Positions 35 through 5,070 of a DNA stretch of 5,070 nucleotides are shown here, piece by piece. Within the stretch, counting starts at the first letter, position 1, and the number at the start of each line of letters is the position of its first letter. Below the pieces are notes generated by a model, which was not told where the DNA came from, did not search any database, and saw nothing but the letters and a program-made list of their open reading frames with translations. Source of the stretch: Nitrospirota bacterium (lineage in GTDB: Bacteria > Nitrospirota > UBA9217); the NCBI GenBank assembly GCA_017885365.1, contig JAFNGD010000179.1, positions 1 to 5,070 on the forward strand, in the 5' to 3' direction. A program made the translations under genes and the position numbers.

Positions 35-37
35 GAT

Positions 38-51
38 ATGGCTGACAGTTG
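38..51 (+). repeat. IS subterminal inverted repeat, transposase-3' end
   Basis: The sequence atggctgacagttg is a perfect inverted copy of 1561-1574. It lies 3 bp inside the predicted IS end at 35, the spacing expected at the transposase-distal end of IS1111-group elements. Confidence 0.85.
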
Positions 52-55
52 TCAA
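50..55 (-). promoter_or_regulatory. -35 half of a predicted IS circle-junction promoter
   Basis: The minus strand reads a consensus TTGACA, partly inside the inverted repeat and pointing outward. When the IS ends are joined, it falls 18 bp before CATAAT (1573-1578, minus strand) at the other end, giving a near-consensus sigma-70 promoter aimed at the transposase. Junction promoters are known in IS110-family elements; this one is inferred from sequence. Confidence 0.6.
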
Positions 56-120
56 GAAGAAAACAGCTCCCCCGCCCCTCCGTACAAAAGGGATGACATC
101 AGTTATTGCTCCAGGGCATG

Positions 121-300
121 ACCAGAGACGGGACCTTTCGGCGACGATTGATCACTCTGATATTCGCGGGTTTGACCGCATGACTTGTCTTCATCGCGGA
201 GCTGTCTCGCTCTAAAAGCGGAAATTCGGCTGGGCCTTATTCCATAGCTTGTACGAGAGTTCTCCAGATCGTGGTCGCGTCTCTGCTGATACCCTGGATG
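121..300 (-). ncRNA. Candidate guide (bridge/seek) RNA of the IS
   Basis: The 310 bp between the transposase stop and the IS end (52-364) have no credible gene, and IS1111 elements are known to carry their guide RNA there. On the minus strand a stem pairs 265-262 (GGAG) with 201-198 (CTCC) and 258-254 (TCTCG) with 209-205 (CGAGA). Inside it, the 5' arm reads cgtacaagCTa (255-245), matching the restored target cgaacaagCTa at 10 of 11 positions across the CT core. The 3' arm reads ttAG (215-212), complementary to the target's CTaa. A second stem (243-240 with 223-220) closes the loop. Separately, atatcAGa (163-156) matches the predicted circle junction at 8 of 8, next to a possible GCGA/TCGC stem (167-164 with 144-141). 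The RNA ends are not determined, and the donor loop is less clear than the target loop. Confidence 0.55.
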
Positions 301-364
301 GTTGTATTTGGTCCTGACGGTTCTCCTTAATCGCTGCCTTGTTCTTTGAAAGCAGTTGCTGCTC

Positions 365-1474
365 CTATGCCGGCATGGGCACTTCTTTGGCGATGGCCCA
401 CATGAAGCCGGAAAGTTCTCGTGCGATCGCGGTTACCGTACGGTTTCTATTTTTCCCCTTGGCCATGAGTTTCCGGAATCGTCCGCAAAGCCGCACTTGG
501 GCTTTCCAGGACATTGCCTTGATCTCACGCGGCAGACCTTCCTGACGTTTTCGAAGCTCCCTGCTGACTCTCGCCGGGAAACCGTACGCCTGGGCCGCCT
601 CGATCAGGGCGCGTCGGGCATGTCCGTTGCCCGTTTTCGTGATGCCGCCCCGCTTGGTGGTCTGGCCGCTGGAATTCTCGGACGGGACAAGGCCCAGATA
701 CGCCATGACCTGCCGGGGATTCTCAAACCGTCTGAAGTCCCCGACTTCGACCACCATGGTTGTTGCCACAATGTCTGCCACGCCGCGAAGGGCCTGAAAG
801 GCGGCAACGACCGGGGCCATTCGCCATGACGGGAGCAGTTTCAAAATCTGTTCGGTCAGACGGACAATGCGCTCTGAACACTCTTCGACGCTGTGGATAT
901 ACTCCTGGAGCGCGATCTGCTGTGCCGGATGCGGCATCTTGATGTCCGCAAGCCACTTCATATGAGCCGGGCTCCATGCTTTTCTGCCCGAATACCGGAA
1001 ACCATGACGGAGAACAAAGGCGCCCAAACGCTGCCGTGCATGCCGAGTGGCGTTTACCGCGTCTTCCCGGCCCCGGACGAGGTCCCGCATGGCTTCATCG
1101 TCCTCGCGGGGGACATACACCGGCGTCAATTCTCCCGCACGGTACAGCCGGGCCAGGGACAGCGCATCCCGCCGGTCGGTTTTGATCCGATCGCCGCTCT
1201 TCTTCGGCGTCATCGAAGGCGCGATGACATCACAGTGGAATCCCTGTGCGGTCAGGTGCCGGTAGATCTCATAGCCGCAGGGGCCGGCTTCATATACGAA
1301 ACGAAGTTCAGCGCCAGAACGACGGAATTTCCGGATCGCCTTGTCGAGAGCATCCAGATCGCCGTCGATGGTGCCGTAGAACCTGACTTCTCCGTTCCTG
1401 CCGTCATCGGCCAGGGCGATATCAATAGAATCTTTGTGTACATCGAGTCCGACAAAAATGATAGAATGTTTCAT
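365..1474 (-). CDS. IS110/IS1111-family transposase (DEDD plus serine recombinase)
   Basis: This 369-residue protein would catalyse excision and RNA-guided insertion of the surrounding IS. The N-terminal RuvC-like DEDD domain (about residues 6-160) shows GLDVHK with Asp11, VYEAGPCGY with Glu62, and KTDRRDA with Asp100 and Asp103. The C-terminal Transposase_20 domain (about 228-294) begins at LRGVADI and holds GLVPSENSSG, whose serines (265, 268, 269) include the expected catalytic one, followed by KTGNGHARRAL. All key residues are present and length is normal, so it appears functional. The frame is open 26 codons further upstream, but ATG at 1474 is chosen because a perfect AAGGAGG (1481-1487) lies 6 nt before it and family proteins begin near GLDVHK. 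The antisense open frames across this gene are shadows. Confidence 0.95.
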   Translation of the reverse strand: MKHSIIFVGLDVHKDSIDIALADDGRNGEVRFYGTIDGDLDALDKAIRKFRRSGAELRFVYEAGPCGYEIYRHLTAQGFHCDVIAPSMTPKKSGDRIKTDRRDALSLARLYRAGELTPVYVPREDDEAMRDLVRGREDAVNATRHARQRLGAFVLRHGFRYSGRKAWSPAHMKWLADIKMPHPAQQIALQEYIHSVEECSERIVRLTEQILKLLPSWRMAPVVAAFQALRGVADIVATTMVVEVGDFRRFENPRQVMAYLGLVPSENSSGQTTKRGGITKTGNGHARRALIEAAQAYGFPARVSRELRKRQEGLPREIKAMSWKAQVRLCGRFRKLMAKGKNRNRTVTAIARELSGFMWAIAKEVPMPA

Positions 1475-1480
1475 GACCTG

Positions 1481-1487
1481 CCTCCTT
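1481..1487 (-). promoter_or_regulatory. Shine-Dalgarno site of the transposase
   Basis: The minus strand reads AAGGAGG here, 6 nt before the ATG at 1474. This decides the transposase start over upstream alternatives in the same frame. Confidence 0.85.
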
Positions 1488-1503
1488 GGTTGTGGCTCTG
1501 TAT

Positions 1504-1522
1504 TTGGGAACCCGGTTCCCAA
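1504..1522 (-). promoter_or_regulatory. Hairpin in the transposase leader
   Basis: A perfect inverted repeat, ttgggaacc-c-ggttcccaa, can form an 8-9 bp stem between the IS end and the ribosome site. There is no U-run after it, so it is not a standard terminator. It could block readthrough into the transposase from outside, or bind a protein; both roles are inferred. A weak TATACT -10-like box lies just upstream (1522-1527 on the minus strand) without a convincing -35. Confidence 0.45.
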
Positions 1523-1560
1523 GTATAACCCACGTTGCAAGGGGCAGGTCACTTGATTTT

Positions 1561-1574
1561 CAACTGTCAGCCAT
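1561..1574 (-). repeat. IS subterminal inverted repeat, transposase-5' end
   Basis: The sequence caactgtcagccat is the exact reverse complement of 38-51 and lies 7 bp inside the predicted end at 1581. The unequal outer spacers (7 and 3 bp) are the IS1111-group signature. Confidence 0.85.
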
Positions 1575-1578
1575 TATG
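1573..1578 (-). promoter_or_regulatory. -10 half of a predicted IS circle-junction promoter
   Basis: The minus strand reads CATAAT (5 of 6 to consensus) between the outer end and the inverted repeat, pointing into the transposase. In the integrated form it has no matching -35 inside the IS. In the circle it would be paired with TTGACA from 50-55: 15 nt from one end plus 3 nt from the other gives 18 nt. Confidence 0.6.
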
Positions 1579-1581
1579 TCT

Positions 1582-2613: not shown

Positions 2614-3897
2614 TCATTCGAGCCGTCCCAGGCGTCCGAAAATATCCTGATAGCTCGCGGCCAGTTCACGCGCGCTCTTCTCACTTTGTACCTTCTTCAG
2701 CTCCTTCAGAACATCGACAACATACGCCCCGGTTTCTCCACCCGCACGATCCCCCATACAATAGACAGGGGTGTATGCAGCAGACCCCAGCGCAAGGCCG
2801 TTATTGTTCCTGACGAGATCGATATTGAATATGATCGACTGTCTGCATTCCCGCGTATACATGGCTGAAACGAAATTGCCGAGCGAATAGGCGATGATGG
2901 CCCTTCGGTACCCTGGACCGGAGCGGTCCTGAACGTTGTCGAAACCAAATGGCCTGTCTGCGTTCACCTCGATGATCTCGAACGGTTGAACAACATGCGG
3001 GTGGTGCCCCATGATCACATCGACGCCCCGGGCGACCAACTGCCTGGCGATCGTCATCATATGGCGGGTCGGATACATCTCGAACTCATGGCCCCAGTGG
3101 AGCGAGCAGACGATCAGCTCGGCCTGTTCCGCGCGCGCCTGCCTGACATGTTCCTCGACCAGGGAATAATCGGTAGGCTTTGACGGATCGCAGAGGTTCA
3201 GCAGGTTGAGACGGACCGGACCCCTGTACCGCTGGTCCTTACCCCTGTTCAGGCCCCACGCATAGGCGAGGAATGCGACCGTTGAACCGTTTTTCCTGAT
3301 CAGGGAGTATTCCCGGTCCCGGTCGTTCGCGCAGGCGCCCGCATGAAGGATCTTCCGCTCATCGAGCTCCCTGAGGGTATTGAGAAGACCGACGACCCCC
3401 TGGTCGAGGCAATGGTTGTTCACGACCGAGAGGGCCGAGAAACATCGTGCCAGATGGTCAAGCATGGTCGTTGGACCGTTGAAGGAAAACAGGTCCGGCA
3501 GGCATTCAATGACCCTGTGGTCGGAAGAAACGGGGGTTTCGAGATTCCCGAGCACGATATCCCGCTGCGAGAGGAAGGACAGGACCTCCTCCGAGAGGAA
3601 ACTGCTCCATCCCTTTCTCATCCACATGATATCGCCCACCATGCTGAGACGCAGAGGCAGCATTGGTGTGCCCTGCTCTTTCTGGATGCCGGACACGGAA
3701 CGGAAGTTCGGTGAGCTTCTTTGGCGGGCGAAATGTCCGATGATCGCGGGATTGGCCGAGTACTTCTTGCTCCGATATTTTCTCAGGTACTGTATGGCGG
3801 AGGTGACATTGCAGGGTGAAAATTTCGTTATCTCATACCGTATCCGTTCATAGCTCTTTGCAAACACCTCTTGGACCATCGTTTCCGAACACTTCAC
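2614..3897 (-). CDS. CapA/PGA_cap-family metallophosphatase-like protein
   Basis: The protein resembles CapA, the poly-gamma-glutamate capsule protein family with a calcineurin-like metallophosphatase fold. All family motifs are visible, numbered from the TTG at 3939: SMVGDIMW (99-106), GNLETP (131-136), NNHCLDQG (174-181), HAGA (199-202), SLHWGHEFEMYPT (279-291), GHHPHVVQPFE (311-321) and YSLGNFVSAM (351-360). They supply the expected Asp, Asn and His metal ligands. About 75-95 residues precede the domain and match nothing I recognise; no signal peptide or membrane helix is obvious. The frame opens at TTG 3939; GTG 3897 is preferred because GAGGG (3904-3908) sits 6 nt upstream, with ATG 3879 as an alternative. 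No capB/capC genes are nearby, so polyglutamate synthesis is not implied. Confidence 0.85.
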   Translation of the reverse strand: MKCSETMVQEVFAKSYERIRYEITKFSPCNVTSAIQYLRKYRSKKYSANPAIIGHFARQRSSPNFRSVSGIQKEQGTPMLPLRLSMVGDIMWMRKGWSSFLSEEVLSFLSQRDIVLGNLETPVSSDHRVIECLPDLFSFNGPTTMLDHLARCFSALSVVNNHCLDQGVVGLLNTLRELDERKILHAGACANDRDREYSLIRKNGSTVAFLAYAWGLNRGKDQRYRGPVRLNLLNLCDPSKPTDYSLVEEHVRQARAEQAELIVCSLHWGHEFEMYPTRHMMTIARQLVARGVDVIMGHHPHVVQPFEIIEVNADRPFGFDNVQDRSGPGYRRAIIAYSLGNFVSAMYTRECRQSIIFNIDLVRNNNGLALGSAAYTPVYCMGDRAGGETGAYVVDVLKELKKVQSEKSARELAASYQDIFGRLGRLE

Positions 3898-3948
3898 GCC
3901 CTGCCCTCGTCTGCCGGTCCGGAATTTCCAGTCAGCCAATGTTTTTCA

Positions 3949-4264: not shown

Positions 4265-5070
4265 TCACTCCACCAGCTGACCGCAACCGATTGTCGCAGG
4301 AGCCGATGATACTTCGTGCGGTTTGCCTTCATATCCTTCGATGTAGACATCAAAGAAACCGAACTGCTTGCGGAGAACGCTCTTCATCAGCTTCATGGCA
4401 TCCCGGCCGTATCCCGACCCGTTCGTCCTGTCCCTTGCCACCAGGATAATTTTTTCAGGTGATAGGCCCCAGATGTGGATATCCTTGACATTCCGTATTT
4501 CGGGGAACGATCGATGCAGAAAGCCGGAAACGTCATCGGCATCTATGTGGGCGGTATTCCCCTCCATCAGGATCTTCACACTGTCCCTGATCAAAAAATA
4601 AGTTGGATACGCAGCCAGGCAGCCGATCAGGATGCCGGCAAGGGGGTCCACAAAATAAAGATGAGTATACCGTATGATGATGGCGGAACCGATAACACCG
4701 ACCGAGCCCAGAGTATCGTTCAAGATCAGGACCAGCGCCCCCTTGATATTCACATCCTTAGAGTACCGGTAAAGTTGTACGAGACCGAAGGCGTTCGCAA
4801 CGAGACCCAGAACGGCGATCACCAGGACCTTGTCCGCTTCAATGGGGTGCGGATGCAGGATCTTCTGGAAAGCTTCCGTGAAAACATAGAACAGGATGAA
4901 GCCGACCAACATCCCATTGAACAGGCCAGACAGTACTTTCGCGCGCTCGTACCCGAAGGTATTGACTTTATCGGGGAGTCTGCGGGCAAGCCTGGTCACC
5001 CACAGCGCGATGACCTGTCCCGAGATATTGACGGCCATGAACGAGGCGTCGGTCACGAGGGCAATGCTGT
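4265..5070 (-). CDS. Cation diffusion facilitator (CDF) transporter, 5' end beyond window, atypical metal site
   Basis: CDF proteins are dimeric inner-membrane antiporters exporting Zn2+, Fe2+, Mn2+ and similar ions. About 268 residues are visible, from TM2 to the C-terminus; roughly 20-40 more should lie outside. Family landmarks include SIALVTDA (TM2), FGYERAKVLSGLFNG, HPHPIEAD before TM4, NDTLGSVGVIGS (TM5), VDPLAGILIG (TM6), then a cytoplasmic domain with EGNTAHIDADDV and VKDIHIWGLS. In typical members TM2 has H(or D)xxxD and TM5 has H(or D)xxxD as the transport site. Numbering from the valine codon at 5056, this protein has Phe6, Asn10, Leu110 and Asp114, so only one of four ligands remains. 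There is no His-rich loop. The frame is otherwise intact, so it may be a divergent or non-classical CDF member. It leads the minus-strand cluster. Confidence 0.85.
   Translation of the reverse strand, partial: SIALVTDASFMAVNISGQVIALWVTRLARRLPDKVNTFGYERAKVLSGLFNGMLVGFILFYVFTEAFQKILHPHPIEADKVLVIAVLGLVANAFGLVQLYRYSKDVNIKGALVLILNDTLGSVGVIGSAIIIRYTHLYFVDPLAGILIGCLAAYPTYFLIRDSVKILMEGNTAHIDADDVSGFLHRSFPEIRNVKDIHIWGLSPEKIILVARDRTNGSGYGRDAMKLMKSVLRKQFGFFDVYIEGYEGKPHEVSSAPATIGCGQLVE

Follow-up and report, generated by a model that had tools for sequence, protein, structure and literature searches.

The window, a 5,070-nucleotide stretch of Nitrospirota DNA, carries an insertion sequence of the IS110 family and IS1111 type (positions 35-1581, minus strand, 1547 bp), which very probably moves by RNA-guided recombination with a guide drawn from the non-coding region downstream of its transposase gene. 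The ends of this element, the structure of the RNA and the tracking of insertion sites by its guide segments are read directly from sequence. The RNA appears to be another bridge RNA or seekRNA of an IS1111-type element, a kind that is already known, and the principle of RNA-guided transposition was published in 2024 (PMC11187229, PMC11208160). The present analysis adds a clade of RNA-guided recombinases in which both target guides are assigned through covariation with the insertion sites. Closely similar RNAs in this clade carry different guides at different matching sites, which constitutes natural evidence of reprogramming, and the clade offers new recombinases with compact guides.

The insertion sequence and its surroundings

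The transposase gene is located at 365-1474 on the minus strand and encodes a DEDD transposase of 369 amino acids, where the ATG at 1474 is chosen as the start of an open frame that begins at 1552. The protein carries the Pfam domains PF01548 (DEDD_Tnp_IS110, 61.1 bits) and PF02371 (Transposase_20, 77.7 bits), and it scores 261.9 bits against a cutoff of 140 with NF033542, the NCBI model for 'IS110 family RNA-guided transposase'. Its characteristic residues are D11, E62, D100 and D103, together with S269-G270 in an SG motif; we take the catalytic residues to be among D11, E62, D100, D103 and S269, as assigned by motif. The only relatives with solved structures at E 0.001 are the transposases of ISCro4 and IS621 (two distinct sequences). 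A scan of genome contigs yields 21 loci with a related transposase, at identities from 90% down, and the closest of these (L001) comes from a Nitrospirae metagenome-assembled genome. The sources of the relatives include Nitrospirae, Desulfuromonadales, Desulfobacterales, Acidobacteria and others. Among viral contigs there are three pattern matches, none of which encodes a relative, and among plasmids there are 284 records with a 60-80% DNA match, none of which covers 80% of the query.

Published marks of IS1111 elements are subterminal inverted repeats and a long non-coding region 3' of the gene (PMC11187229, PMC11208160). The repeats span 7-17 bp (PMC11208160), and the transposases are marked by a C-terminal motif, GL-P----S(t)G (PMC11187229). 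The window element has subterminal repeats of 14 bp, a long non-coding region with the guide RNA core (142-282) downstream of the transposase gene, and a translation that includes GLVPSENSSG, which fits the motif. The length of 369 amino acids falls outside the 330-350 amino acids of IS1111 transposases, which is a spread of lengths and no defining rule (PMC11187229).

The ends of the element are set by its subterminal inverted repeats and by the 14 of the 21 relatives in which both ends can be read. The left repeat (IR-L, 1561-1574, minus strand) is complementary at all 14 bp to its partner, the right repeat (IR-R, 38-51, minus strand). Outside IR-L lies the extension AGACATA (1575-1581, minus strand), which forms the left donor half, and outside IR-R lies the extension ATC (35-37, minus strand), which forms the right donor half. 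AGACATA is also the left-end extension in 11 of the 14 relatives, with AGACACA, AGACAGT and AGACAGA in the remaining three, and ATC is the right-end extension in 13 of them, with ACC in L021. The extensions in the window are those of its relatives, and therefore the element is placed at 35-1581 and the restored plus-strand site reads GCGAACAAGCT/AACAGGTT. The position of the CT core (AG on the minus strand) is ambiguous between 33-34 and 1580-1581. The left target half, GCGAACAAGCT, occupies 24-34 on the plus strand with the CT core at its end, and the right target half, AACAGGTTAAC, occupies 1582-1592. Insertion is expected between CGAACAAGCT and AACAGG, and the predicted circle junction is ...GCCATATC-AG-ACATAATGGC... 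There are 330 nucleotides between the stop codon of the transposase gene and the right end.

The rest of the window holds several observations of its own. An empty insertion site was sought in the genome G209, which keeps synteny with the window at 67-80% identity in the genes next to the element (zinc-ribbon, HMA, DUF3562 and efflux); nothing in it aligns in the insertion region, and no empty site came to light. In the window, a PGA_cap-type gene (PF09587) at 2614-3939 separates the HMA gene from the DUF3562 gene; in G209 these two genes are close together, and a DNA match to the PGA_cap-type gene is found on another contig. For the cation-efflux protein encoded at 4265-5056, a fragment in G213 gives 91% identity over 187 residues and a fragment in G209 gives 75%. 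Because both of these genomes are relatives of the Nitrospirae genome G001, the matches suggest that the window comes from the G001 lineage. There is also a palindromic repeat of 139 bp at 1627-1765, whose arms (1627-1646 and 1746-1765) are 95% complementary and enclose a nested 24-nt pair. It resembles a miniature inverted-repeat element, with partial matches of 76-90% at 10 places in G001 and one of 77% in G213. Related insertion sequence copies in the genomes G102 and G158 use sites of the type found at its tip, CAACAGCCTGTTA.

The structured RNA and its donor-side region

The probable extent of the guide RNA is 110-298 on the minus strand, bounded by a long closing inverted repeat (298-273/135-110) whose 26-nt arms are 85% complementary. 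This 189-nt stretch is matched in all seven of the relatives' genomes that were searched. The minus strand from 310 to 105 is predicted to fold at -77.8 kcal/mol, compared with -52.2 kcal/mol for shuffled sequences (z -5.6), and is better than 200 of 200 shuffles. A conserved core at 142-282 (minus strand) is described by covariance model R1, with which the window, itself one of the 14 core sequences behind the model (the others are 13 relatives), scores 144.2 bits. The consensus from the 14 cores includes 20 pairs, nine of them with two-sided changes. The model matches 21 of 195, 6 of 245 and 22 of 194 genomes in three sets, for a total of 49 of 634, several of which had already been found in the transposase scan. 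At the gathering score, Rfam has no match in the window.

The consensus includes a target-binding stem-loop at 198-265 (minus strand) that is formed by the helices 265-262/198-201 and 258-255/205-208 and an inner helix, 243-240/220-223. The first two of these correspond to the stem-loop that the original prediction had drawn at 265-198. Covariation was examined in 39 RNAs outside the model together with the window, aligned with MAFFT without structure and with the structure transferred via the window. In this alignment, 92.6% of cells are paired; column shuffles give 87.7%, and displacing the partners by one to three columns gives 38.6-49.6%. The sequences are related, and most were found by a structure-aware model, which favours paired cells. 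Two-sided changes occur in 35 cells against 5.3 in shuffles, a value that none of 500 shuffles reaches, and the count of further pair types is equalled in 8 of 500. Conservation of the structure, with covariation, thus extends to sequences that were not used to define it. A sigma-70-like promoter was looked for in positions 1-460 of the window and none was found; the guide RNA may derive from the transposase transcript or from a promoter at the circle junction.

The donor side of the RNA includes a conserved hairpin at 166-179 (179-176/166-169, minus strand), which is paired in 98.1% of cells. Beyond it is the predicted right donor guide, ATATCAG, at 157-163 (minus strand), which equals the right end plus the core. 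Of the 37 distinct RNAs whose left end is known, 36 carry this sequence; the exception is L014 with ATCTCAG, and a further RNA outside the 37 (L137) has ATATCAA. An eight-base match to the predicted circle junction, ATATCAGA at 163-156, had been proposed earlier and is present. Seven of its bases, ATATCAG, are conserved, and the eighth (156) varies between copies.

A probable left donor guide, AAGTC, is located at 182-186 (minus strand) and matches the left donor ATGTC at four of five positions. Base 186 follows base -6 of the left end (0.92 compared with 0.63 expected), which is the top signal of the donor scan, and AAGTC (186-182) was placed against ATGTC on account of this signal. The assignment draws on one covarying base and is less certain because position -5 is mismatched in most copies and the left ends are narrow in variety (24 of 37 are identical).

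One possibility is that the short target stem-loop (~80 nucleotides, a seekRNA in the strict sense) makes up the whole functional RNA and that the second region does not read the donor. In its favour, the transposases of ISEc11 and ISKpn4 co-purify with a predominant 82-nt RNA (PMC11187229), and the left donor guide is weak in the window. However, the near-constant identity of ATATCAG with the right end plus the core, the tracking of left-end variants by base 186 and the almost uniform pairing of the donor-side hairpin argue against it, and we consider it rather unlikely. The longer RNA with two reading regions is the preferred reading.

Target guides and the sites of insertion

The left target guide, ACAAGCTA, is located at 245-252 (minus strand), with the core CT at 247-246, and it tracks target positions -7 to 0, matching at 8 of 8 positions in the window. 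The right target guide, TTTAG, is located at 212-216 (minus strand), with the core AG at 213-212. Bases 214-216 are complementary to target positions +0 to +2 across copies, and two of these three informative positions pair in the window. The guide segments therefore match both target strands and overlap at the core, which is the mark of a bridge RNA or seekRNA. The 5' guide is complementary to the strand that carries the transposase gene in the sense orientation. In published IS1111 seekRNAs the complement of the top strand lies 5' of the match to the bottom strand (PMC11187229), and the order in the window fits if 'top' denotes that strand.

These assignments grew out of a proposed match between the stem-loop and the insertion site. 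As proposed, the minus strand at 255-245 reads CGTACAAGCTA against the restored site CGAACAAGCTA (in which the flank up to 34 is joined to the flank that starts at 1582), an agreement of 10 in 11 whose sole mismatch is base 253, with T for A, and TTAG is indeed present on the 3' arm at 215-212. In the window alone, the match is suggestive only: when the 316-nt region is shuffled 300 times with dinucleotides preserved and both strands are considered, three of the shuffles reach 10 of 11. The extent of the guide has been narrowed to the informative bases 252-245, since base 255 is paired in the constant stem, base 254 is constant in most copies and base 253 matches at chance level. ACAAGCT occurs again at 1599-1605, a site that the element has not used. 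The two bases after it are CG and not AA, and these are the positions to be read by the right guide and the last part of the left guide.

The original prediction would fall if the 255-245 segment failed to track the flanks of homologous copies at different sites, and this comparison supports it. The covariance model gives 98 matches in 100 sources, with none in L008 or L021. In L008, the non-coding region (1211-1400) stops inside the guide segment and is followed by unrelated sequence, as if cut or rearranged. After omission of L102 and L159 as repeats of L018 and L016, there are 96 tabulated rows, from which 24 without a right-end flank found by script and five without a CTCG anchor are set aside, leaving 67. 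To locate the guide segment, the analysis used the constant CTCG stem together with a rule for the core that is blind to the target. The 67 loci carry 40 distinct guides, and over the six positions that precede the core the guides match the target at a mean of 4.24 of 6, compared with 1.73 (sd 0.17) when guides are permuted; none of 20,000 permutations reaches 4.24 and the largest gives 2.43, although kinship among the sequences makes these permutation figures, and the shuffle figures above, overstate independence. With the 28 CT-core guides only, the means are 4.47 and 1.78. From position -8 to position -1, the fractions of matches are 0.29, 0.54, 0.77, 0.87, 0.92, 0.85, 0.98 and 0.98, where the value for -8 (base 253) is close to the chance level of 0.23 and holds little information. 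At the position that follows the core, guide and target agree in 45 of 47 cases, including the rarer G (two) and C (one).

There are some misfits. L140 matches at none of the six positions, and L099, L009, L157, L162 and L163 match at two. L021, a relative of 49% identity with readable ends and no model match, has a guide with a different core that matches at about three of six positions by eye. Of the five rows without an anchor (L016, L142, L144, L161 and L170), the three read by eye give 5 of 6 (L016), 5 of 6 (L144) and 3 of 6 (L161). The 11 copies in G102 and G158, which belong to the 24 flankless rows and were resolved later, match at four or five of six positions by eye. All of these hand readings in G102, G158, L016, L144 and L161 are kept out of the statistics. 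The set searched with the model leaves out L169, L175, L176, L178 and L019, as well as the loci with 1500-base flanks (L022-L096), which are mostly duplicate places; consequently, it includes no place from G063, G114 or G582, and several short end pieces are absent as well.

A scan of every column of the alignment against every target offset (51 distinct RNAs, 7,540 tests with at least 15 rows) recovers the same segments. Of the 11 strongest signals, 10 come from the left diagonal, in which window bases 252, 251, 250, 249, 248, 247 and 245 equal target positions -7, -6, -5, -4, -3, -2 and 0, or from the right diagonal (214-216). Further down the ranking is base 246 (target -1), which hardly varies. 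The one remaining signal among the 11, between base 156 and target -3, probably reflects kinship because base 156 tends to split relatives with a GTTA guide from others.

Sister elements exhibit the same tracking. The window and L001 are 95% identical in the core outside the guide, and four of the 11 differences across the core fall within the guide. Four of the five guide positions counted differ, and all four changes are mirrored in the two insertion sites. In a set of 17 disjoint sister pairs, the guides differ at 55 positions in all; at 39 of these, both guides match their own targets, and none match when the targets are swapped. The pairs L160/L158 and L162/L099 score 0. Multi-copy elements exhibit constant sites. 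All 11 copies of the G080 element are at GAGCACT/A with the guide TGAGCACTA, and all four copies of the G020 element are at GGGACACT/AG with the guide AGGACACTA.

A motif of seven bases shared by every copy of a G080-type element is also what would be expected if the matched flank were the element's own end, such that guide and flank covary as parts of one element and the RNA does not choose the site. This explanation is highly improbable. In G102 (six copies) and G158 (five copies), the matched flank continues into a separate repeat with the tip CAACAGCCTG..., and exact searches of these genomes find four CTGTTA and seven CTGCTA tips, of which 9 of 11 are far from the listed insertion sequence copies. 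In G158, two pairs of opposite tips are 148 bp apart, like intact repeats free of the insertion sequence. The left target half in the window is likewise part of a host repeat that recurs at 1582-1605, such that the left flank AACAGGTTTATAAGCGAACAAGCT has a second copy, at 79% identity, beyond the other end of the element. In addition, the extensions AGACATA and ATC are nearly constant while the flank varies. Still less credible is a coincidental match to an ordinary terminator or attenuator hairpin downstream of the transposase gene, given that, whatever the shuffled regions allow for the window's match by itself, the guide column tracks the flank over 40 distinct guides and heads the all-column scan, and that no terminator-like site was found on the minus strand of positions 1-460.

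The preferred reading, an RNA that chooses the site, suggests the following mechanism. The non-coding region after the transposase gene would yield a structured minus-strand RNA with a core at 282-142, and this RNA would read DNA in two regions. One region would address the target: its 5' arm, ACAAGCTA (252-245), would pair with one strand and its 3' arm ending in TTTAG (216-212) with the other, with an overlap at the CT core. The other region would address the excised circle, whose joined ends would pair with ATATCAG (163-157) and probably with AAGTC (186-182). Both DNAs would be held on the RNA by the transposase, which would exchange strands at the core, such that the element lands between GCGAACAAGCT and AACAGGTT. 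Transcription, the circle intermediate and strand exchange would here proceed as in published relatives. The programmable bridge RNA or seekRNA envisaged in the original prediction is thus supported by the tracking of sites, by covariation and by the published work on IS1111 elements (PMC11187229, PMC11208160).

Reading of the core and comparison with known systems

The core of the left guide follows the core of the target in most of the 46 distinct RNAs, with agreement for CT in 33, TT in 10 and CC in one; under the core rule, L162 and L140 disagree. In 45 of the 46, the right guide has AG at the aligned core positions. There are 12 loci (L009-L014, L017, L121, L122, L134, L143 and L179) in which the left guide has a TT or CC core that matches the target and the right guide has AG, and in the 11 of these where the left end was read it begins with AG. 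Against this pattern, in G102, which is outside the 46, the guide core is TT but the right junction is CT in all six copies, a combination that a wobble pair could allow. The repeat tips in G102 and G158 occur both as CTGTTA and as CTGCTA, and the CT at the right junction in G102 may come from the donor or from the target. Perhaps only the left target guide reads the core of the target (CT, TT or CC) and a CT core is retained in the right guide and in the donor, such that natural insertion proceeds, with help from G-U wobble, at sites whose core differs from that of the element. We regard this reading as tentative and somewhat doubtful. If it is true, a split core would let the group reach integron recombination sites and small-repeat tips with its ends unchanged.

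Five relatives (L009, L012, L013, L014 and L017) have a GTTA guide at full GTTRRRY sites, and L011 is alike as far as its contig reads. L010 and L134 also have the GTTA guide, at sites that fit GTTRRRY in part only. We take GTTRRRY to be the consensus of the integron attC core site. An IS1111-attC group was reportedly described by Tetu and Holmes in 2008, and the relatives with GTTA guides (L009-L014, L017 and L134) look like members of that group, with the RNA guide accounting for the site. The five with full sites are alike with it in both site and guide. In contrast, the window element has ACAAGCTA as both guide and site, which is no integron site.

The seekRNAs described for the IS1111-family elements ISEc11, ISPa11 and ISKpn4 resemble the RNA in the window in that they are encoded in a non-coding region downstream of the transposase gene, in elements with subterminal inverted repeats (PMC11187229). 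They also have guides for both target strands, and the guide differs between elements with different sites (PMC11187229). The window represents a different element at a different site, with a transposase of 369 instead of 330-350 amino acids, and it is known from sequence alone (PMC11187229 for the three published elements). The bridge RNA of IS621, from the IS110 group, likewise has left and right target guides in one loop that overlap at a CT core, and it has donor guides, as the RNA in the window probably does (PMC11208160 for IS621). However, in IS621-type elements the RNA is encoded upstream of the transposase gene and its donor loop is simple, whereas the RNA in the window is located downstream and its donor side is predicted to be a multiloop, an arrangement that has been described for many IS1111 members (PMC11208160).
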